Assembly: GCF_019132845.1 (NCBI RefSeq)
Contig: NZ_JAHSPR010000003.1
Coordinates: 1-64,000 of the forward strand
DNA from: Advenella alkanexedens
GTDB taxonomy: Bacteria; Pseudomonadota; Gammaproteobacteria; Burkholderiales; Burkholderiaceae_B
Length of the DNA: 64,000 nucleotides
Direction: 5' to 3'
Numbering within the stretch: the stretch's first letter is position 1; every line of letters begins with the position of its first letter. Both the position numbers and the translations under genes were made by a program. Below are positions 27,235-61,238 of this stretch, piece by piece. The notes beneath the pieces are model-generated. The model was not told the origin of the DNA. It saw nothing but the letters and a program-made list of their open reading frames with translations, and did not search any database.

Positions 27235-27237
27235 AAA

Positions 27238-27263
27238 CCGTTCACCCTATCCAGGGCAAACGG
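27238..27263 (+). terminator. hairpin after the Bug receptor gene
   Basis: CCGTT and AACGG form an outer stem, with CCCT/AGGG inside and a two-base mismatch on each side between them. It starts four bases after the Bug stop and lies between that gene and the convergent DUF2149 gene. The T-tract is weak, so the call is tentative. Confidence 0.35.
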
Positions 27264-27290
27264 CTAGCACGTTAAACAACGAAGATTTTT

Positions 27291-27611
27291 TTAACGGGCG
27301 GCAACCGTTTCAGGCACATAAATCATGCGCCCGTCATCAAGCCGGTAGGTAATGCCGGCTTTTACACCCTGCCCCTGCCCGATTTCACCATTGGACTCAT
27401 AACGGGTCAGCTCTTCACCCTCTTTAATCGTCATGGACATATTGGCCTTGCCAGGATTTTCAATCACAATCACATCCTGGGCGGCATACGGATTAAGCGG
27501 GTTAAGGGCAACCACCACCATCAAAATACCAATCACCACCAGAAACAGGTCAATCATATTAACCACCGAAAGGATGGGATCGTCTGCGTCATCAGATTCC
27601 AGAAATCGCAT
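27291..27611 (-). CDS. DUF2149 protein, ExbD-like membrane subunit of the CobN-like operon
   Basis: The 106-residue product has one membrane segment near the N-terminus (about residues 17-37) preceded by an acidic stretch. Asp21 lies at the start of that helix (NMIDLFLVV), which recalls the proton-carrying Asp of ExbD/TolR. The C-terminal 65 residues would be periplasmic. DUF2149 proteins are found beside MotA/TolQ/ExbB proteins and CobN-like chelatases, as here, where the ExbB-like gene ends two bases upstream. I infer an ExbD-like role; this is not experimentally settled for the family as far as I know. Confidence 0.75.
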   Translation of the reverse strand: MRFLESDDADDPILSVVNMIDLFLVVIGILMVVVALNPLNPYAAQDVIVIENPGKANMSMTIKEGEELTRYESNGEIGQGQGVKAGITYRLDDGRMIYVPETVAAR

Positions 27612-27613
27612 GC

Positions 27614-28102
27614 TTAGGCCTCCTGCATGACAAGCAGGCCCTGGCGTTCCAGCTCACGCAGTTCCTGTAACAGCCAACGCCGCCGCACCGTCAAAATGAA
27701 AAACGTAATGCTGGCGGCAATCAATGCCAAAATAACCGCAGAAAAAGCGGTCACCAGGTTCTCGCCAACACCGGCGGCATTGCCCCCGCCAAGCGCCAGC
27801 AAGGCTGGCCCCATGGGTATCATGGTGGCAATCAAACCCAGCATGGGTGCCGTGCGCGACACAATACGCAACAGTTCCAGGCGATGCATAATCCATAGTT
27901 CCAGATCATCTGCAGTGCCACCATGGCTGGCATGCCGCCGGCGTAGCACCCATTGCGCACGTTGCTGGCGTCTTTGCCACCACTCAACCGCAAAGCCACC
28001 CAGCGAAGCGAAGGAATACAACAGGCACAACAAAATCATTACAAGTACGGGTGCAAGGAAAAGACTGGCAAGTTCGTACAGGCCTGATTCAAGAAAGTTC
28101 AT
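27614..28102 (-). CDS. MotA/TolQ/ExbB-type proton-channel protein
   Basis: The 162-residue product has three membrane segments: one near the N-terminus (about 14-38), then a basic cytoplasmic loop, then a pair (about 85-110 and 118-140). The middle segment carries the family signature RTAPMLGLIATMIPMG, and the third is the small-residue rich TAFSAVILALIAASITF. It is shorter than ExbB. It sits between the CobN-like gene (18 bases upstream) and the DUF2149 gene (2 bases downstream). I infer that the two small proteins make a proton-driven motor for the CobN-like protein or the TonB-dependent receptor. Confidence 0.85.
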   Translation of the reverse strand: MNFLESGLYELASLFLAPVLVMILLCLLYSFASLGGFAVEWWQRRQQRAQWVLRRRHASHGGTADDLELWIMHRLELLRIVSRTAPMLGLIATMIPMGPALLALGGGNAAGVGENLVTAFSAVILALIAASITFFILTVRRRWLLQELRELERQGLLVMQEA

Positions 28103-28120
28103 TTAATACTCCAAAAAAAA

Positions 28121-31100
28121 TTATGCATGCGCATGCCCTGTACGGGTCCCGCGCCATTGGCGCAGGGCACCATACAAGGTGGCTGCCCCCAACAGGACAA
28201 ATGAAAAAACCAGCATCCAGGGAAACGATGGCGGTGCCGTTTCCACCGCCTGCATAACCTGGCCACTAACCACAGACGGTGCCTGGGTGTCGGCGGCAGA
28301 AGCGGAGTCAGGTGTTGCGGCATCCATTTCTGCAGCCGCTTGCACCAGGCCAAAGCCCTGGGCCATGTCCGCCACAAAAGCCTGTGTCAGCGAATCTCCG
28401 GCCGTGACATCGAACTGCTGCACCAGTTCCTGCCAGCGCTCGGCCAGCGCCTGCCGGGTGGCTTCGGGCGCATCCCAATAGCCTTTGCGTATGGCTTCGG
28501 CCATGCGTTCCAGCAACTGCGCCTGGGCGGTTGGGTTGTGTTGCTCAAACCACTCATTCGTACCCAATTGGCGGGTATCTTCAATATAAGTGTCGAAGAT
28601 GGCCTGCCATTGATCGGGCCGCACGGTAGCCGGGTCTACGGCCTGCCAGCCAAACAGGTTGTTAACCGTATCCACAACCTCCAGCGTACCGGCATAACCT
28701 TCAGTTTGCATGCCCTGTATCCAGTGCGGATTCAGGTATCTGACCCGCATTTCGTTGGAAAGAAAGGCTTGCATGGAAGTGGTCTTGGGTTCTTTGTGGC
28801 GCAAATCAGAGATATACAGTGGTGGGCTTTTGCCATCCAGATGCCGGATCGCCACCGACAGCCCACCCAGAAATTCAAATGGGTGGTCGGTGGAAAGCAC
28901 GCCATGTATATTTGAGGTGCGTGACATGACCGCTGCATCGGTGCCCCGCAACTGGGCCGCCAGCAGGTTGACCGAAGACGGCTTGATGGCCCAGCCTTCA
29001 CTGCCATAGGCATACTGCATGCGACTCAGGAACTGCCCGGCCAAGGCGGCATCCCCTTCCCACTGGGTGGATTGCTGCATCATGCCGGGCAGGCCCGTGC
29101 CATAATTGCCCGGCGCACTGCTGAAAATCCGATAGCGGGCAGCCTGCCCGGCCTCGTTTGCAGACATGCCCGATGCCAGCAATTCAGCCGTGATCCGCTT
29201 TGTATTGGACGCAACCGGATTATCCGGTTCGTCCAGCTCCGCAAGCCGATTCATGGCCTCGGCCAGCAAGCGCATAAAACCGTCAAACTGATCCCGGTAC
29301 ACACCCGTTGTCTGAATGACAACATCAATACGCGGCCGGCCCAGCGTAGTGGCAGGAATGATCTCCAGACGGGAAATCCGGCCATTGCGCGCCCATACCG
29401 GTTTCAGACCCAGCGCCTGTAAAACCTGCCCTTCGGTAATGCCTTGATGACGCACCGCCTCACCCGCCCACAGGCTGAATGCCAGGCGTTGGGGCCAGAC
29501 GCCCTGATGCTCGCTGCGATAAGTATCCACCAGCTGCATCAATGCCGTGCCACCGCTTTCATAAGCGGCAGGCGTGGGCAATTTATCGGGTTCCAGCGCA
29601 TACAGATTACGGCCGCTGGCCAAACCGGGACGGCGTATGGGATCGCCCCCCGGCCCCGGCAACACGAAACCGCCCGACAAGCCGCTTAATAACGCTTCCA
29701 TCTCGCCGGTATCAGCCAGGCCTGCGTCCAGCTCTTGGGCACGCCGCAGATGCGCCTGAAGTTCAGGCACAGCCGTGGCAATATCTTCACCCTCACGCAA
29801 GTAACGGCTCAGGGTTTGATAAGGAACACTGCTTTGCAGCTTCGTGAAATCTTCCGCCAACACCCCATCCGGCAAGCCCAGCGCCTCATAAAAAGGCTGT
29901 CCCAGCTGTTGCATCACCACGAAAAGCCGGTGCTCCGGCGCAGAAGGCTGGCCAAAACGATGCAGCCCCAGTGGCATGGCGGTTTGGGCCAGTGACTGCA
30001 AGTGATCGTGCAAAACCTGCAGAAAACCCGAAAAATCCTCACGTGCCTGGCTTTCCTGCCAGCCCAAATCCTGAATCAGGCTGGAATCACGTGTGGCGGC
30101 CAGGATTTTTTCCATGACCGCCTGCTGCACGGCACCTTCGTCCAGCTGCTCATACTCCTCTATAAGCGTCAGCATATCGCGCAGTTCGTCATAAAGCCCT
30201 GCCGGTGCGAAAGGCGGTGTTTGATGACTGATGGACACCGCCCTGCCCCGGCGCCGCGTTTGTAGCGCCTCACCGACGTTATCCTGGATATAAGGGTAGA
30301 AAACAGGTAAATCTCCCAATGCCAGGAAGGGATAGTCACGCATGGAAAGCCCCCTGTCCTTGCCGGGCAACCATTCCTGGGTGCCATGCGTGCCCAGATG
30401 GATCAGGGCGTTGGCACTGAACACTTCGCGCACCCACAAATAAGCCGCCATGTACAAATGATCGGGTGCTTTCGATTCATCGTGGTAATGACTGCCCATT
30501 TCCGCGGCCCTGGGCATTTGTGGCATGATCACCAGCTTACCCAACTTCATTCTGGGAATCACGAACGCAGGCACGCCATCCACCGTGCGTACCGCCCAAT
30601 GGTCTGCCGGATTCCCCCAAACCGCCATGCCCTCGCGTGGCCCGGCCGGCAGTTTGTCCAGCCATGCCTGGTATTGTGACACCGGCAGCACCGCTGCCAG
30701 GTCACGGGCCAGCAGGTCTTCTGGCGGGCTGCTTCGGTACAGCATGGACAGCATGGCCTGGCCTTTTTCAATCATGTCGACTTCCTTGATGGGATCAATG
30801 TCGTAGCCCGCCTGCTTCAGCGCCCCGGTAATATTTTCAATACTGACCGGGACATTCAGGTGGGAAGCACCAAAATTGCGCTCACCGGGTGGGTAATTCC
30901 AGAACATCAGTGCCAGCTGCCTGTCGCTGGCAGGCTTACGGCGCAACTCAATCAACTTGCGCAATTTATCCAGCAAACCGTCCACCTGTTCGGCCATGGG
31001 CACCGCTGCTCCGTCCTGCAAGACAGACAGCACCATCGGGTCGCTCATGCCCCAGGTTTCAGGAATGGCCATAAAGATCGGCACAACCCTTTGCGCCACA

Positions 31101-32011
31101 CCACTGGGCGCTGCCAGCCATTGGACCTGATCACCCTCACGATAGGTCAGGGTCTGGATCGCGGGGATACCCAGTTGCGCCAGTTCGGCAGCGCGCTCGG
31201 TGCTGTTCTGCGTCATGCGCAGGTTGACCATCGCATCGGCACCGGCCGGCTTGACCACTTTCGTCAACGCCTTGGGGTCGTTACTGTCATACCAGAAGGC
31301 AACAGGCAAGATGTTTCTGGCTTCAGATGCGGCAATCAGGGCATCAATAAGCTGCGTCTGCATGTCACTGACCACGCCATTGTGAATCAGGAAGGCAACG
31401 TGGCCAACGGGCTGGGGCATGCGTGCCCGGGCCCAGGCCAGGTAAGGCTCAAGCGACTCGAATACCTGCGGGGCGGCCGGATGATAAAACCCCGTCTCAG
31501 GCACCGGTTCGGCAGCCGGCAGCGAGGCAATGGAACGGCCTTCGGCAAGGTCTTTGGCGGCCTGGAAAAACAAGCCGTAATTGCCGGTACCGCCGTTGGT
31601 GTAATAGCTGGACAGTTGCCGGGCCTGTTCGGCCGTCATGCCACCAAAGTCTTCAACACGGCTGCCAACCCTGAGCCAGGGGATATTCCCCATCTTCAGA
31701 TTTTCGCCAATCGCGCCATCCACTTCGGCACGGGCACTGGGGCGCGGTGTATCCAGCACCACCAGGCTGGCGGCCAGCAACCATTGCCCGGCAGGTGCAC
31801 CTATCGTCCCAACATCCACATGCTCAAGCCGGACACCGGCACGTTCGGCAATCGGAGCCAGCACCTGAAATTTGGCCGGTAGCACCGAACGGTTGGTGAC
31901 CACCTTGACAAGCGGAGCAGAAACGTCAGCTGCCGCCTGGGCCGGGACAAGCCCGGCACCCCCCAAACACCACCACAACAATATCCATAAGTTAAGCATA
32001 AACTTGCGCAT
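28121..32011 (-). CDS. secreted, membrane-anchored CobN-like chelatase (HmuS-like)
   Basis: The 1296-residue product is a homologue of the large chelatase subunit CobN/ChlH. The central signature begins at His538 (HLGTHGTQEWLPGKDRG) and continues with LGDLPVFYPYIQDNVGEA and the ISHQTPPFAP segment. Unlike cytoplasmic CobN, it has a signal peptide (about residues 1-27) and a C-terminal membrane helix (about 1262-1280) with a short basic tail. The catalytic body should thus be periplasmic, away from ATP. No CobS or CobT gene is in the window. Order and neighbours match the hmu haem-uptake loci, where HmuS takes the metal out of haem. The substrate, haem or another tetrapyrrole, is not proven by sequence. 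Confidence 0.88.
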   Translation of the reverse strand: MRKFMLNLWILLWWCLGGAGLVPAQAAADVSAPLVKVVTNRSVLPAKFQVLAPIAERAGVRLEHVDVGTIGAPAGQWLLAASLVVLDTPRPSARAEVDGAIGENLKMGNIPWLRVGSRVEDFGGMTAEQARQLSSYYTNGGTGNYGLFFQAAKDLAEGRSIASLPAAEPVPETGFYHPAAPQVFESLEPYLAWARARMPQPVGHVAFLIHNGVVSDMQTQLIDALIAASEARNILPVAFWYDSNDPKALTKVVKPAGADAMVNLRMTQNSTERAAELAQLGIPAIQTLTYREGDQVQWLAAPSGVAQRVVPIFMAIPETWGMSDPMVLSVLQDGAAVPMAEQVDGLLDKLRKLIELRRKPASDRQLALMFWNYPPGERNFGASHLNVPVSIENITGALKQAGYDIDPIKEVDMIEKGQAMLSMLYRSSPPEDLLARDLAAVLPVSQYQAWLDKLPAGPREGMAVWGNPADHWAVRTVDGVPAFVIPRMKLGKLVIMPQMPRAAEMGSHYHDESKAPDHLYMAAYLWVREVFSANALIHLGTHGTQEWLPGKDRGLSMRDYPFLALGDLPVFYPYIQDNVGEALQTRRRGRAVSISHQTPPFAPAGLYDELRDMLTLIEEYEQLDEGAVQQAVMEKILAATRDSSLIQDLGWQESQAREDFSGFLQVLHDHLQSLAQTAMPLGLHRFGQPSAPEHRLFVVMQQLGQPFYEALGLPDGVLAEDFTKLQSSVPYQTLSRYLREGEDIATAVPELQAHLRRAQELDAGLADTGEMEALLSGLSGGFVLPGPGGDPIRRPGLASGRNLYALEPDKLPTPAAYESGGTALMQLVDTYRSEHQGVWPQRLAFSLWAGEAVRHQGITEGQVLQALGLKPVWARNGRISRLEIIPATTLGRPRIDVVIQTTGVYRDQFDGFMRLLAEAMNRLAELDEPDNPVASNTKRITAELLASGMSANEAGQAARYRIFSSAPGNYGTGLPGMMQQSTQWEGDAALAGQFLSRMQYAYGSEGWAIKPSSVNLLAAQLRGTDAAVMSRTSNIHGVLSTDHPFEFLGGLSVAIRHLDGKSPPLYISDLRHKEPKTTSMQAFLSNEMRVRYLNPHWIQGMQTEGYAGTLEVVDTVNNLFGWQAVDPATVRPDQWQAIFDTYIEDTRQLGTNEWFEQHNPTAQAQLLERMAEAIRKGYWDAPEATRQALAERWQELVQQFDVTAGDSLTQAFVADMAQGFGLVQAAAEMDAATPDSASAADTQAPSVVSGQVMQAVETAPPSFPWMLVFSFVLLGAATLYGALRQWRGTRTGHAHA

Positions 32012-32015
32012 AGGA

Positions 32016-33974
32016 TCAGAACCTCATTTCCATACCAACAAACAGGCGACGTCCTTCATCACTGAACACATAATCTGCGGACTCATCGGCCAGACGCTTG
32101 TCAGTGAGGTTTTCGATACCTGCATGCAAGGTCACATGACGGTTGACATCGTAACTGCCGTACAGGGAAAGGATTGAATAGGCAGGCTGATACCCCGACC
32201 CTGAAGTCGTCCGTTGTGAACCGACATACTGCCACCTGAGGCTGGCGTCCCAGTCATCTGCCGGTTGCCAGTTCAATGTGGCATTGGCGGTATGGCGCGG
32301 TCGGTCCGTCAGGCGCGTTTTGCTGGTGCGATCCACCGCATCCAGATAGGTATAGTTGGTTTTCAGATGCAGGTTCCAGGGCAGCTCAACCCCAAAGACC
32401 AGCTCCAGGCCGCTAATGCGAGCCTTGTTGATGTTAATGTACTCGTACGTTTTGAGTTTGCCGCCACACCCGGACACACAGTTGCTATCAATCAGGTCAT
32501 CCACCTGATTCAAAAACAGCATGGCATTGGCCTGCCAGCGGTCACCGGTATAATCAAACCCCGCTTCATACGACACCGAGGTCTCGGGCTTCAGGTCTGG
32601 GTTGCCGAAGATTTCTGAACCCCGCCCCCATGTACCGCGATATCCGGGTGACAGCTGTTTAAGTGTGGGAGCCCGAAAACCCTTGCCCACACCACCCTTG
32701 AAAACCAGCTCATCATTGAAGTGATACAGTACATAGGCACGCGGACTGGTCTGCCAGCCATAATTGGGATGATGATCGAAACGGCTACCCAGCAGCAACT
32801 CCCAGTTTTCCCCCAGCATCATTTCATCCTGCAGGAAGAAAGCCTTGTGAGTGGCATTTTCCCGACCGGACGCATTCACGGTGGGGTCTTCCAGGATTTC
32901 CTTGCGCAATTCACCGCCCAGCGTAACGGTGTGTCCGGCCAATGGCTCAAAGCTGATCATGCCGCTGGCAACCTTATCGGTAAACTGGTGCGGGCCGGTG
33001 CTGCCACCGTCTGTCCGGTCATTGACACGCTTGAGGTTGGAGCGGTACACCTTGACTTCACTTTTCCCCCAGTCCCAGTCTCCGGAATGAGACAGGGAAA
33101 GGCGCTGCCGGCGAATATTGTCATCTGAACGGTAAGTGGTGCTATTGCGCCAACGATCTTCTTTGCCGACACTCATGGTGGCGTCCAGGCGTTGCCTGTC
33201 ATCAGGGGTCCAGGTTAATCCCACCGTGCCCAACAGGTCTTTCCGGTACCCCATGGAGGTCTCATGAAAAGCCGTGGGCGTTGCACTTTGAGGCGTGTAT
33301 AAGGCCTGCGTATGTTGATATTGCCCGGACACCGTCAGGCCAAGCACGTCCTGTACCAGTGGACCTGAAATATAGGCACCCAGACGGTGACGGTCACCGC
33401 CCCGACTGGTGCGGGGAAAAACGCCATCGGCAGAAAAAACACTGACCCACTCATCGGTGGCACGTCGTGATATCACGTTGACGACTCCCCCAAGCGCCTC
33501 GGAACCGTAAAGCGAAGACATGGGACCACGGACAATTTCAATACGTTCAATGGCTTCCGCCGGCATCCAGCCGTGTTCAAAATCCGAACCAAAAATAAGG
33601 GGACCCGACTGGTTGATACGCATGCCGTCATACAGGACCAGGGTGTGGTCTGTTTTCATGCCGCGGATTGAAATACCCTTGCCATTAATGCCAACGCTAC
33701 TCAACGTAACACCAGGGGTGCCCTCCACCGCCTGAGCCACATCATAAATCGGCCGATGACTCAGCTCCTCGCTGTTTAACACCGTGACACTGGCGGGTGC
33801 ATCCTCCAACAAACGCTCGCTTGCCGATGCCGTTACCACAATGGGCTCCAATTGGGTAACACTGGCAACGCTGGTATTGGCCCAGGCAGTACCAAATAGG
33901 GCACCGGCTACCGTAGGGCAGGCCAAAACAGACAGGCGAAAACGTGATAGGCAAATAAAATTAAAATCTGTCAT
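32016..33974 (-). CDS. TonB-dependent outer-membrane receptor
   Basis: The 652-residue product has a signal peptide (cleavage near AWA-NT), a plug domain and a 22-strand barrel. A TonB box-like EPIVVTAS lies just after the signal peptide. The plug includes GVNGKGISIRGM-like sequence and IERIEIVRGPMSSLYGSEALGG; the barrel includes GFRAPTLKQLSPGY and NPDLKPETS and ends in Phe. It starts an operon with the CobN-like chelatase gene four bases downstream. Haem or another metallo-tetrapyrrole is the likely cargo, from context only. I chose the ATG at 33974; a TTG at 34013 adds 13 residues. Confidence 0.9.
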   Translation of the reverse strand: MTDFNFICLSRFRLSVLACPTVAGALFGTAWANTSVASVTQLEPIVVTASASERLLEDAPASVTVLNSEELSHRPIYDVAQAVEGTPGVTLSSVGINGKGISIRGMKTDHTLVLYDGMRINQSGPLIFGSDFEHGWMPAEAIERIEIVRGPMSSLYGSEALGGVVNVISRRATDEWVSVFSADGVFPRTSRGGDRHRLGAYISGPLVQDVLGLTVSGQYQHTQALYTPQSATPTAFHETSMGYRKDLLGTVGLTWTPDDRQRLDATMSVGKEDRWRNSTTYRSDDNIRRQRLSLSHSGDWDWGKSEVKVYRSNLKRVNDRTDGGSTGPHQFTDKVASGMISFEPLAGHTVTLGGELRKEILEDPTVNASGRENATHKAFFLQDEMMLGENWELLLGSRFDHHPNYGWQTSPRAYVLYHFNDELVFKGGVGKGFRAPTLKQLSPGYRGTWGRGSEIFGNPDLKPETSVSYEAGFDYTGDRWQANAMLFLNQVDDLIDSNCVSGCGGKLKTYEYININKARISGLELVFGVELPWNLHLKTNYTYLDAVDRTSKTRLTDRPRHTANATLNWQPADDWDASLRWQYVGSQRTTSGSGYQPAYSILSLYGSYDVNRHVTLHAGIENLTDKRLADESADYVFSDEGRRLFVGMEMRF

Positions 33975-34277
33975 TTGTGAATTTATATATCTATTTATAT
34001 TTATAGGTAACAAAGCACGGACGTAAACTGATTGTGACGCCGGACGTTACCAGAGTCTGTAATAGACGATTGTTACCGATGCATTGACCGATTCACGGAT
34101 CGCCGGAAAGACTTAATGCCTGGGCGCGGGCCTGATATTTGAAGCAGGTGCAAGAACAGGCAATAGCACAACCGGCCTGACGCTGTCGCGTAAGCGGGAA
34201 TGGACAATAAACACAAAAAAACCTCGGAAAACGATCGTCAAGGCATGATTGAGGCGAACACAATCACTGGCAAAAAG
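33975..34277. promoter_or_regulatory. upstream region of the receptor-chelatase operon
   Basis: About 300 bases without a gene. The first 40 bases before the receptor start are very AT-rich, as expected for a promoter. I looked for the B12-box of a cobalamin riboswitch and did not find it. I also could not make out a convincing Fur box by eye. An AACCTCGG at 34221-34228 and CCGAGG at 34283-34288 could pair at long range, but this is weak. Confidence 0.35.
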
Positions 34278-34703
34278 TTAACCGAGGCTTAAAGGAGGGG
34301 CACGGGAGCCCAGCGGCGGGCCCAGGGCGGGCAAAGGAGGGAGTGCTTCATTGCCATGTAGCAATGGGGCAGGACGTTGCGTAACGAACGTCACCAATGC
34401 AGGCGCTTCCGATGCGGGGATTAATACCTGCGATGCAAGCAGGCAAAATGAGCAATTCTGATTGTCAAAATAATCGCCTGACGATGGCTCGACCGGCTGT
34501 CCGTTTGCATCCACCAGGATGGTGCTTGTACCGGCAACGGTACAAATGGTAATGGAAAATCTGCCGTCACGGGCGCCGGAAAAGTCGGGCATATAGCCCA
34601 CAGGAATCAGCGCCCGGCACAGGAACGACAAAACCGTCAGGCAAAAAAGCATTTGCCAGACGCGTGTCATCTTGTATCGAGGTTGATCCTGAAAAATTCG
34701 CAT
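34278..34703 (-). CDS. DUF2946-like small membrane/periplasmic protein
   Basis: The product of about 141 residues has one hydrophobic segment near the N-terminus (MLFCLTVLSFLCRALIPVGYMP), then a part with ICTVAG and CSFCLL cysteines, and a Pro-rich tail. The pattern fits the DUF2946 family, often found beside TonB-dependent receptors and copper genes. The start is uncertain: the ATG at 34703 was chosen, but one at 34670 would put the hydrophobic segment nearer the N-terminus. It precedes the receptor-chelatase operon in the same direction by about 300 bases. The Cys pairs could bind metal. Confidence 0.6.
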   Translation of the reverse strand: MRIFQDQPRYKMTRVWQMLFCLTVLSFLCRALIPVGYMPDFSGARDGRFSITICTVAGTSTILVDANGQPVEPSSGDYFDNQNCSFCLLASQVLIPASEAPALVTFVTQRPAPLLHGNEALPPLPALGPPLGSRAPPLSLG

Positions 34704-34935
34704 AGTCCGCAACTATATCATATTCACCGCCTCACCCCAATGCTGAAATCAGACAAATTATTGCCCTTCACACAACCGGGACACCTGCCCATATGTCATG
34801 TTTGTGTCTTGTCATTGTCATATTCGCGTGCTAGGATCATGCAACGCTTAAATAACATTTAATTCAGCTATCTATGTTTATCCTACTTCAATTGAACCCA
34901 ACTTATGGCTTCTGACACGGAACCACCCAGTACGA

Positions 34936-58432: not shown

Positions 58433-58470
58433 AGGCAATAATCGTTTATTTGCATTACTCACGATTATTT

Positions 58471-59847
58471 ATGCCGCAGCACTCACTCAAGGATTACTGG
58501 ATTACCGAAACCCTAAGGCTTAGGGAAGAACACTGGGGGCCCATTGAAGATACCACCCTGCTCCACCAGATCCGCCACAGCCAGGAACCTGTCAGCCAAA
58601 AAATCATCCAGCGCGCCACCCTGATCGCCAAGCGGGACGGGCTGGCGGCCACCATCGACAAATGGCGTGGCAACGCACGCCTGGCTTTTTGGGCCATGGC
58701 ATTGCTGGCCATGCTTACAGGTATCGGCATGGCGGCCAGCGCCCTGGGAACAGCGCATGTCAACCTGCTACTGGCACTGGTTGCCTTGCTGGGCCTGCAC
58801 GCCATTACCTACTTATTCTGGCTGCTGTCTTTTCTAGCCCCTTACCATGGCGGCACCTTGCTGGGCCAGGCCTGGCTTTGGCTGGGTAAAAAGCTGGCCC
58901 GTGGGCCCGATGCCACCCTGGCCCCACAGGCATTTATTAATATCCTTAACCAGAACAACGGCCTGCGCTGGCTGTTGTCGGCCATCAGCCATGGAATCTG
59001 GGTTGTGATCATGGCGACTGGCATTATCACTCTGCTGGCTCTGCTGGCGGCCCGGCAATATACCTTCGGCTGGGAAACCACCATCCTGCCCGCCTCTTCC
59101 TTTGTGTCCATCACCCAGGGTATTGGTTTTTTGCCGCATTTACTGGGTTTTTCCATTCCTTCGGCTGATATCATCCAGCAAAGCAGTGGCCTGCAAACCG
59201 CCGGTCCCGCATCACAGGCCATCTGGTCTTCCTGGCTGATTGGTGCAGTCATGGTGTACGGTTTGCTGCTGCGCCTGGCCAGCCTGCTGCTGTGCCTTTG
59301 GAAAACCCGGCAAGCCATCCACCAAATACAGATTGATGAAACCCTGCCCGCCTATGCCGGCCTGGTCGACCGCCTGTCCGCGCACAGTGAGCATATCGGG
59401 GTGGATGCCCCCGCCCCGGCCTTGCAAACCGCCCGGCGCAACACCCATCCTGCACTGGCACCGGCAGGCAGCCCGCTGGTGGTGGGGCTGGAGTTAAGCC
59501 CACGCGCGCCATGGCCGCCCTTTACCCTGCCCGCCACCGTGCATGACCAGGGCAAGCTCGAAAGCCGGGAACAGCGCCATCAGCTGCTGGCACATATGAG
59601 TCGCCAAACCGTACCCGCCCTGCTGATTGTGTGTGATGCCGCGCAAACCCCCGATCGCGGCACCCTGCATCTCATTACCGACCTGTCCAATCTGGCTTCG
59701 CGTACCGATATCTACCTGCAAACCGGTCACGACACAGCGGAAAACCGCCTGGAATTATGGAAAGAGCGCCTGCAGCAGGCAGGCTTTGGCCTTGAACAGT
59801 TGCATGACACACAAAAAACACTGCCATCCTGGATACAGGCAAATTGA
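58471..59847 (+). CDS. DUF2868 membrane protein, partner of the DUF3482 GTPase
   Basis: The 458-residue product fits DUF2868: an N-terminal cytoplasmic segment (LRLREEHWGPIED), four predicted membrane helices (about 70-95, 100-120, 175-200, 255-280) and a C-terminal cytoplasmic domain. Its TGA overlaps the ATG of the GTPase gene (TGATG), so the two are coupled. I chose the ATG at 58471; a TTG at 58450 is possible. Function unknown. Confidence 0.82.
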   Translation: MPQHSLKDYWITETLRLREEHWGPIEDTTLLHQIRHSQEPVSQKIIQRATLIAKRDGLAATIDKWRGNARLAFWAMALLAMLTGIGMAASALGTAHVNLLLALVALLGLHAITYLFWLLSFLAPYHGGTLLGQAWLWLGKKLARGPDATLAPQAFINILNQNNGLRWLLSAISHGIWVVIMATGIITLLALLAARQYTFGWETTILPASSFVSITQGIGFLPHLLGFSIPSADIIQQSSGLQTAGPASQAIWSSWLIGAVMVYGLLLRLASLLLCLWKTRQAIHQIQIDETLPAYAGLVDRLSAHSEHIGVDAPAPALQTARRNTHPALAPAGSPLVVGLELSPRAPWPPFTLPATVHDQGKLESREQRHQLLAHMSRQTVPALLIVCDAAQTPDRGTLHLITDLSNLASRTDIYLQTGHDTAENRLELWKERLQQAGFGLEQLHDTQKTLPSWIQAN

Positions 59848-61238
59848 TGAATATGGAACCAAATAAAATATTGCATCTGGCGGTTGTTGGCCACACCAAC
59901 ACCGGCAAAACCTCATTATTAAGAACCCTTACCCATGATACCGGGTTTGGAGAGGTTGCCGACTTTCCCGGCACCACCCGCCATGTGGAAGGTGCCCGCC
60001 TGTTCCTGAACGGGCAGGCCGCGGTTGAACTGTTTGACACCCCGGGGCTGGAAGACGGCATTGCCCTGCTGGATTACCTGGACCAGCTTAAAGCGCAGAC
60101 CCGTCAAGGCTCCTCCCGCTTTGATGGTCCGGAAAGCATTCAGCGCTTCCTTGACACGCCGGAAAGCAGGCAGCGTTTTGAACAGGAAGCCCGGGTTTTA
60201 CGCAAACTGCTGGAATGTGATGCCGGTTTGTATGTCATTGATATTCGCGACCCCGTACTGGCCAAGCACCGGGATGAACTGGCCATTTTAAGCCGGTGCG
60301 GACGCCCGCTGGTACCCATTCTGAATTTCATGCACAGCAGCCCCAATTACCTGCCCGAGTGGAAAGAATCCCTGGGTCGCCTGGGCCTGCATTTAAGCAT
60401 TGAGTTTGACTCGGTTGCCCCGGCCCTGGATGGTGAAGAACAGCTTTACCAGAAGCTGGCCCTGGTCCTGGACGGCCATGCCGCCATCCTGAAAGCACTG
60501 TCTGAGGACATCCACCGGCAGCGCAAACTGCGACGGGACATTGCCTACAACATGATTGCCGAGCTCCTGATTGATGTGGCCGCTTTTCGCTATACCTGCG
60601 CGGGTGATGAAGAAAGCATCAAAAGCGCCACGGCCCTGTTACAGGACGTGATCCGCCAGCGGGAGCAGGAAAGCATCCAGGCCCTGCTAACGCATTACCG
60701 TTTCAGGCAGGAAGACTATCCCGACCAGACCCTGCCCATTGAAGGTGGGCGCTGGGGCATGGACCTGTTCCAACCGCAAGCATTGATGGAAATGGGCATC
60801 CAGGTGAGTAAAGGGTTTGTGGCCGGGGCCATGGCCGGCGCAGCGGTCGATGTCATGTCAGCCGGCCTGAGTCTGGGCACCGCCACCCTGATTGGTGGCG
60901 TGATTGGCAGCGTATGGCAAGGTGTGGACAAGTTTGGCAAGCGCATTCTGGGCAAGCTGCAGGGCTACCGCGAAATTACCCTTGATGACGCGATTATCCG
61001 CCTGCTGGGCATCCGCAGCCTGCAATTGCTTAATGCCCTGGAAATGCGTGGCCACGCAGACCAGCGCCCCATTATGCTGAACACGGAAACCGTTACCGGC
61101 CAATTCAAGGACGGTGACCTGCCGGAGGAGATCCTGGAAGCCCGCAGCCTGCCGCAATGGTCCAAAATGAGCGAGCATTTTGAAACCGGCGCCCGCCGTA
61201 ATGCGGCCATCAAGTCGCTGGCACGTAAACTTCGTTAA
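59847..61238 (+). CDS. Era/TrmE-like GTPase with DUF3482 domain
   Basis: The 463-residue product has an N-terminal GTPase domain: G1 GHTNTGKT (residues 15-22), G2 Thr in PGTTRHVEG, G3 DTPGLEDG. The C-terminal half is DUF3482, with a Gly/Ala-rich segment (FVAGAMAGAAVDVMSAGLSLG, about 325-345) that may insert in a membrane. The G4 motif is not of the NKxD form. It is translationally coupled to the DUF2868 membrane protein, so the two probably form a GTP-driven membrane complex. Confidence 0.85.
   Translation: MNMEPNKILHLAVVGHTNTGKTSLLRTLTHDTGFGEVADFPGTTRHVEGARLFLNGQAAVELFDTPGLEDGIALLDYLDQLKAQTRQGSSRFDGPESIQRFLDTPESRQRFEQEARVLRKLLECDAGLYVIDIRDPVLAKHRDELAILSRCGRPLVPILNFMHSSPNYLPEWKESLGRLGLHLSIEFDSVAPALDGEEQLYQKLALVLDGHAAILKALSEDIHRQRKLRRDIAYNMIAELLIDVAAFRYTCAGDEESIKSATALLQDVIRQREQESIQALLTHYRFRQEDYPDQTLPIEGGRWGMDLFQPQALMEMGIQVSKGFVAGAMAGAAVDVMSAGLSLGTATLIGGVIGSVWQGVDKFGKRILGKLQGYREITLDDAIIRLLGIRSLQLLNALEMRGHADQRPIMLNTETVTGQFKDGDLPEEILEARSLPQWSKMSEHFETGARRNAAIKSLARKLR

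Follow-up and report, generated by a model that had tools for sequence, protein, structure and literature searches.

HmuS, reported in 2025, is a relative of the chelatase CobN that can run backwards, freeing the iron of haem: it binds haem at a first site through Met79 and His254, demetallation is thought to take place at a second site, with His538 essential, and the enzyme requires NADH, not ATP (PMC12583661). Another CobN-like protein is encoded in PA1922-PA1925 of Pseudomonas aeruginosa, together with a receptor, a protein named 'ExbD' and a DUF2149 protein (PMC4542158, PMC9431628). Zur binds the promoter of these genes and lack of zinc induces them (PMC4542158, PMC8531726, PMC11761036), the receptor gene by 147-fold in a znuA mutant (PMC4542158, PMC8531726, PMC11761036, PMC8456098, PMC9431628). 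Copper has a sensor of its own in CruR, a copper-responsive leader open reading frame (ORF) of Bordetella pertussis whose nascent peptide senses the metal via a CXXC motif, spaced about 45 residues from a RAPP motif; without copper the ribosome stalls at RAPP, and with copper a termination reported to be Rho-dependent takes place upstream of a TonB receptor gene (PMC9426467). Here, we describe a locus of Advenella alkanexedens in which a CobN-like module stands behind a CruR-like leader gene. It lies in a stretch of 64,000 nucleotides (assembly GCF_019132845.1, contig NZ_JAHSPR010000003.1, positions 1 to 64,000), which we refer to as the window. We propose that the locus is a copper-starvation operon whose CobN/HmuS-like protein strips copper from an imported tetrapyrrole, and we put the chances of the whole mechanism at about even. 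We infer copper control from motif homology, and we also infer attenuator action, substrate, direction and energy coupling.

The leader gene and its hairpin

The body of the operon is a row of four genes on the minus strand (27291-34013), separated by 4, 18 and 2 bases, as the original prediction stated and as a re-check of the ORF list confirmed. In the direction of transcription they encode a TonB-dependent receptor of the CirA (colicin I receptor) type (32016-33974), assigned through Pfam and NCBIfam and carrying the TonB receptor plug and barrel domains; a CobN/HmuS-like class I chelatase subunit of 1296 residues (28121-32011); a MotA/TolQ/ExbB-like membrane protein (27614-28102); and a DUF2149 protein (27291-27611). 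This is no chance arrangement, because the same receptor-CobN-ExbB-DUF2149 order recurs in loci of Burkholderiales, Alcanivorax, Denitrificimonas, Pseudomonas and Paracoccus. The original prediction missed a fifth, co-directional gene at the operon head (34278-34712, minus strand), which encodes a DUF2946 protein, and it placed the receptor start at TTG 34013, whereas ATG 33974 is more likely. The unit would thus read cruR-receptor-CobN-like-ExbB-like-DUF2149, and we predict that it is off with ample copper.

The DUF2946 gene carries most of the argument for copper. Its product matches the family at 34.4 bits (Pfam cut-off 23.7), probably starts at an ATG at 34703 or 34670, and contains the sequence CSFC, 46 residues, RAPP and a four-residue tail, hence both marks of CruR, the CXXC motif and the C-terminal RAPP. 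From its end to the receptor ATG there are 303 bases, matching the CruR pattern of a first gene, a long intergenic region and a receptor. The same leader gene stands ahead of the receptor in Advenella faeciporci (L002), Advenella mandrilli (L003) and a further locus, L058, making four loci with the window, with leader identity down to 58%. RAPP is kept in all four leaders, and CXXC is kept in L002 and L003. The CobN-like proteins of A. faeciporci and A. mandrilli are 92% and 89% identical to that of the window, and among 268 family genomes an identity above 70% was reached only in the window genome and in those of L002, L003 and L058 (G002, G005 and G033); two type A matches (a group defined below), G535 and G621, split over contigs or placed at a contig start, lie outside the compared loci. 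The only other DUF2946 gene found in the genome, with CLLC and RSQAPP, lies 97 bases ahead of cydAB (L097 8122-11343, G000:C17), which would fit a change to the copper-free bd oxidase under copper shortage. Taking motifs, spacing and adjacency together, we think it very probable that the operon is under copper control. The DUF2946 proteins of L058 and L065 have CXXG for CXXC with RAPP intact, and may sense something else; that of L065 heads no CobN operon, and its neighbouring ORFs resemble CopC/CopD and a receptor (names by our own reading).

A putative attenuator hairpin spans positions 34290-34215 of the minus strand: a 9-bp stem (AAGCCTCGG/CCGAGGTTT) encloses an inner hairpin and leads into a T-run. 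Its 5' arm is made of the last cruR codons, directly behind RAPP, and a ribosome stalled at RAPP would mask much of it. In none of the four loci was any of 200 shuffles equally stable (z -3.6, -4.0, -4.6 and -5.2), and the two main helices are paired in 60 of 60 cells across the four sequences. The hairpin would be a candidate intrinsic attenuator, unlike the Rho-dependent case of Bordetella.

The chelatase module and its relatives

Against the CobN-Mg_chel family (PF02514) the large protein scores 969.5 bits and is the single match in the whole genome (2.99 Mb); its partners score 30.2 bits (MotA_ExbB) and 90.7 bits (DUF2149). A signal peptide-like N-terminus and a C-terminal anchor are suggested by hydrophobic segments with Kyte-Doolittle maxima of 1.94 and 2.05 (hydropathy only, with no signal-peptide program), compared with at most 0.62 at the C-terminus of nine CobN/BchH rows. 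These ends support the earlier claim that the chelatase body would sit in the periplasm. The likeness to HmuS noted in the original prediction also holds, HmuS being the nearest solved relative by sequence. A comparison with HmuS and CobN by structure prediction, which had been suggested along with it, gave HmuS (9d26, E-value 4e-52) as the top match of our fold model and CobN (7c6o, 1e-49) as the second. The model has a predicted local distance difference test score (pLDDT) of 72 and a predicted template modelling score (pTM) of 0.49, and its template modelling scores (TM-scores) are low (0.35 for HmuS, 0.32 for CobN) because domain placement is uncertain; therefore, it confirms the family without ranking its members.

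A quick IQ-TREE analysis of 48 rows, which gave supports from the Shimodaira-Hasegawa-like approximate likelihood ratio test (SH-aLRT) only and came with a long-branch warning, placed the window protein in a clade of four (support 100) nested in a 22-row group that we call type A (100). HmuS lies on the type A side, apart from CobN/BchH (SH-aLRT 97), and the quick tree gives no firm order of branching among HmuS, Trichlorobacter, type A and a group called type B. L114-L118 were added to type A by identity (46-55%), not by the tree; L098 (32%) was left out, and so was L010, which has a good Zur-like site but just the terminal part of a CobN gene.

For HmuS, the haem propionates are predicted to be held by Ser1199 and four of Phe502, Ser1014, Ser1067, Gln1198 and Trp1202 (PMC12583661). 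In our alignment His506, His538, Ser1199 and His1209 are kept as His510, His542 (codon 30386-30388, the catalytic histidine in HmuS), Ser1033 and His1043 (codon 28883-28885, site 2); Phe502, Ser1014, Ser1067, Gln1198 and Trp1202 have become Gly, Ala, Thr, Thr and His, so that five of the nine named HmuS cleft residues differ. Since four of the five predicted propionate-holding residues are changed, the ring bound here may not be haem. The methionine-rich insertion of HmuS is not present (HmuS 702-897 aligns to residues 707-735 only), and the site-1 ligands Met79 and His254 correspond to Pro89 and Met266 (codon 31214-31216) as aligned, in a head region where the alignment is weak. Pro occupies the Met79 position in all 17 type A rows aligned. 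At the His254 position, all 22 type A proteins that lack cruR have His and all four that go with cruR have Met; Ile, Leu, Ser, Gly, Ala or Asp stands there in other rows. The His1209 position holds His also in BchH_Roseo, as in HmuS itself, and Asp or Gly in three CobN rows. De-chelation, the release of metal that the original prediction favoured, appears the likely chemistry.

Zur boxes were counted as sites within three mismatches of TGTTATAnTATAACA, which we take to be the consensus. A box of this kind lies near the receptor start in 17 of the 24 type A loci without cruR in which upstream DNA is present (L050, with its split genes, among them), with a chance expectation of 0.005 sites per 500 bp (mononucleotide shuffles, ten loci). 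As for the exceptions, L053 and L061 have four mismatches, and no site in L005, L006, L052, L077 or L114 is convincing. L077 also lacks a receptor immediately beside its CobN-like gene. No Zur box was found between cruR and the receptor in any of the four CruR loci. A Zur box in the window was rejected by position weight matrix (PWM), with 2.9 bits for the best site near the operon against 22.9 for the znu box of the genome, which is one of 18 training sites scoring 13 to 25 bits. This znu box (L073) lies between a Fur-family gene and ATP-binding cassette (ABC) transporter genes, read by us as zur and znuCBA. The A. mandrilli genome holds both kinds of locus, L003 with CruR and L070 with a three-mismatch Zur box (CobN 39% identical by BLAST). 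In L050, of the same genus (G008), the receptor and CobN-like genes of a Zur-type operon are each split over two frames. L005 comes from Paracoccus caeni, of the genus in which coproporphyrin III copper uptake has been proposed, and is a type A operon in which neither Zur box nor CruR was found.

Among type B loci a Zur box was found in four of five, two of them near-identical. The type B loci L065, L067, L068 and L069 have the order receptor-ExbB-DUF2149-CobN, 29% CobN identity and strong Zur boxes; opposite HmuS His538 and His1209 they have Gln and Met, in a less certain part of the alignment. A third and looser set of 17 loci (36-42% BLAST identity, nine of them outside the tree) has no Zur box in 16, the other being a three-mismatch site in L056. 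Six of its receptors were scanned for haem-receptor profiles; those of L099, L102 and L104 pass the cut-offs, and those of L007, L063 and L106 are CirA-like and fail. L099, L102 and L104 (Burkholderiales, about 40% identity) thus combine the CobN-like module with receptors above the haem cut-off, have Asp at HmuS His1209, and are candidate haem de-chelatases outside Bacteroidota.

The two small proteins resemble a channel pair. The DUF2149 protein is HmuV-like, with one predicted transmembrane helix and a conserved Asp21 (codon 27551-27549); an ExbD-like Asp in this helix, pointed out in the original prediction, is borne out by 44 of 45 rows (L078 is shortened by start choice) and by its alignment with the Asp of ExbD. 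With hhalign, DUF2149 aligned to three ExbD at an E-value of 5e-4 (probability 32%, 25 columns), and 45 rows of the ExbB-like protein to one ExbB at 2.3e-5 (probability 76%). PDB sequence searches with either protein returned no significant match, and the DUF2149 model has low confidence (pLDDT 54). The pair need not be a TonB motor, because a Trichlorobacter plasmid, pGLOV01 (L079, typed mobilizable), holds the receptor, DUF2162, ExbB/DUF2149, CobN-like and exbB-exbD-tonB genes in one row, and because two ExbD are encoded elsewhere in the window genome. On a Comamonadaceae plasmid the pair lies beside a CobN-like gene with no receptor annotated in 15 kb, and in Azospirillum no annotated receptor is nearer than one that lies 4 kb downstream (the annotation is incomplete in both). 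From these three gene rows, the pair appears to be a partner of the CobN-like protein and not of TonB. Downstream of the DUF2149 gene, a terminator-like stem of 13 pairs (27236-27265, minus strand) may close the operon; the scan of the region found 13 such sites, against 9.4 in shuffles. Farther along, the window carries a DUF2868 gene and, next after it, a gene for a DUF3482 GTPase (58450-61238).

Proposed mechanism and competing explanations

How could these parts work together? When copper is scarce, a ribosome would stall on reaching RAPP, at the end of the CruR-like nascent peptide, and cover the 5' arm of the hairpin, so that no terminator would form and transcription would continue into the receptor genes. 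Copper on the CXXC motif would release the ribosome, allowing the hairpin to form and turning the operon off. The CirA-type receptor, powered by the ordinary TonB-ExbB-ExbD, would import a metal-loaded tetrapyrrole to the periplasm. The candidate is copper coproporphyrin III, coproporphyrin III having been proposed as a copper-acquisition compound in Paracoccus (Anttila 2011, as cited in PMC6104308). There, the membrane-anchored CobN/HmuS-like protein would hold the ring and remove the metal at the conserved site-2 histidines, and the ExbB-like/DUF2149 pair would serve it instead of TonB, perhaps as the motor of a conformational cycle. Proton drive by this pair, as put forward in the original prediction, is perhaps correct, and we keep it as a candidate only.

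A number of observations weigh against this mechanism. Copper(II) porphyrins are very stable, and removal of the metal would need reduction or a strong drive. Of the two positions that we take to be the channel Thr of ExbB, the first is kept; the second is Val in the window and in all type A rows, where the two HmuU rows and the four of type B have Thr. With five of nine cleft residues changed, even a tetrapyrrole substrate is uncertain. His538 gives no argument for de-chelation or for direction, because it is common to the whole chelatase superfamily, according to the HmuS paper (PMC12583661) and to the CobN and BchH rows here. The exchange of His for Met at the ligand position is suggestive and not proof, being one among 41 fixed differences (4 versus 13 rows) or 28 (4 versus 18 rows). 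Met makes up five of the 28 residues gained by the CobN-like proteins of the CruR clade in the latter comparison, and Met content is 3.4% against a mean of 1.86% in type A without cruR (n=22); as a sign of copper this enrichment is weak, since the other 22 window ORFs have a similar content (2.77%, standard deviation 0.91). Residue differences in the receptor were likewise rejected as a copper pattern and show no trend towards Met or Cys. The hairpin has slight covariation, with one compensatory pair and a score equalled by 114 of 500 shuffles, too little for proof. In the L058 leader CTFG replaces CXXC, and a CruR-type leader might repress for purposes other than copper uptake. Finally, a Zur-like site with three mismatches (11.2 bits) lies ahead of cruR in L003; it may be a relic, and zinc input may linger there.

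A related possibility keeps copper and gives up the tetrapyrrole. The operon could handle another chelate, such as a siderophore-like chalkophore, with the CobN-like fold re-used to open the complex, or metal could be inserted and not removed. The name of CirA-type receptors refers to catecholate siderophores; CrtA, a receptor led by CruR, takes up chelated Cu(II) for which no metallophore is known (PMC12914433); and several HmuS cleft residues differ in the window protein. The chelatase core is, however, well conserved, and against insertion speaks the lack of CobT, also reported in the original prediction: PF06213 had no match in the genome, in which no search was made for CobS (as a control, the CobT profile matched in one of 14 genomes, Caulobacter). 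We give this explanation a modest chance.

It is rather improbable that the locus is a zinc operon like PA1922-PA1925, with the copper leader acting only as cross-control. The sister operons with Zur boxes, the published Zur control of PA1922-PA1925 and the Zur-like site ahead of cruR in L003 would all suit such a role, but the window has no Zur box, A. mandrilli has a Zur-type copy apart from its CruR locus (L070), and the His-to-Met change at the ligand position is fixed.

Haem was the substrate favoured by the original prediction, with the receptor importing haem and the CobN-like protein freeing its iron like HmuS. HmuS is indeed the nearest solved relative, the ExbB/DUF2149 partners are as in two hmu loci, and His538 and His1209 are kept. 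Nonetheless, we now consider this very unlikely. The HmuS haem ligands, its insert and most of its propionate-holding residues are gone, and the leader is of the copper type. The receptor falls under both NCBIfam haem-receptor cut-offs (TIGR01785/01786; 221 of 317 and 203 of 324 bits), even though the relatives L099, L102 and L104 have haem-type receptors. No Fur box near the operon rises above chance, the best match (12/19) being no better than what 100 of 200 shuffles gave. A separate haem cluster is present in the genome, with a receptor, HemS (two PF05171 domains), a binding protein, a FecCD permease and an ABC ATPase, as well as two overlapping Fur-like sites of 15/19, scored without shuffle comparison; a haem role for the operon is therefore not needed. 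The original prediction's point about a missing haem oxygenase stands in a narrow sense only, as PF01126 was not found in the genome (no search was made for haem-degrading families of other kinds, HugZ among them). A cobalamin or corrin operon with a cobalt chelatase, to which the database name CobN points (NF004644, 1707 bits, cut-off 1248), is close to refuted by the absence from the genome of CobT and of any match to CbiC (PF02570), by the lack of Rfam matches at gathering scores in the 64-kb window, by the position of the protein across a supported branch from CobN/BchH and by its export signals. At the same scores, Rfam also gave no match in the 11 relatives searched.

Comparison with known systems

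Copper stripping from a tetrapyrrole thus remains the account that we prefer. The zinc version of the module (PA1922-PA1925) and HmuS have already been published, and we found no copper version of the CobN-like module, nor any link between a CobN-like protein and a copper leader, among the best-matching open-licence papers. Both families do appear in one P. aeruginosa gene table, at separate loci (PMC9431628), the main text of the CruR study makes no mention of CobN, chelatases or porphyrins (PMC9426467), and we found no demetallating enzyme named in the cited account of the coproporphyrin III proposal (PMC6104308). Tentatively, this would be the first enzyme system to gain copper by tetrapyrrole stripping. 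Its ancestor would have stripped zinc and changed in three coupled steps, losing its Zur box, acquiring a CruR leader whose intrinsic terminator the ribosome masks, and exchanging His for Met at the docking-site ligand; we regard this larger claim as doubtful for now. HmuS showed that a CobN relative can free haem iron, and the relatives found here tie the module to zinc through Zur and to copper through CruR. If the proposal is true, the HmuS/CobN branch would be a module of general use for stripping metals in the periplasm, existing in versions for iron, zinc and copper. The role of the CobN-like gene of the Zur regulon and the recovery of copper from a porphyrin chalkophore become testable, and masking of an intrinsic hairpin by a stalled ribosome would suggest a second mode of CruR leader action.

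Compared with CobN and ChlH (BchH), the window protein has the fold family PF02514 in common and differs in its export and anchor signals and in a genome with neither CobT nor CbiC. The ExbB-like/DUF2149 pair shares with ExbB-ExbD, TolQ-TolR and MotA-MotB the MotA_ExbB domain and a single-helix partner with a conserved Asp, whereas type A has Val in place of the second channel Thr and nothing in the PDB matches the periplasmic part of DUF2149. With HmuS and hmuYRSTUV of Bacteroidota, the locus has in common the class I chelatase fold, two membrane anchors, the ExbB-like and DUF2149 partners and His506, His538, Ser1199 and His1209; it has no hmuY or hmuT gene, no Met79, His254 or Met-rich insert, other cleft residues, a non-haem receptor and a copper leader. 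PA1922-PA1925, a type A-like case from the literature, has the same gene content and order and a receptor also named CirA, but those genes are under Zur and zinc control and the window operon has a CruR-like leader and no Zur box. The cruR-bfrG(crtA)-bp2921 locus of B. pertussis, in turn, provides the match for the head of the operon: a DUF2946 leader with CXXC and RAPP, a long intergenic region and a TonB receptor. Downstream, the window carries a chelatase module instead of PepSY_TM, and an intrinsic-type hairpin with a T-run instead of the reported Rho-dependence.

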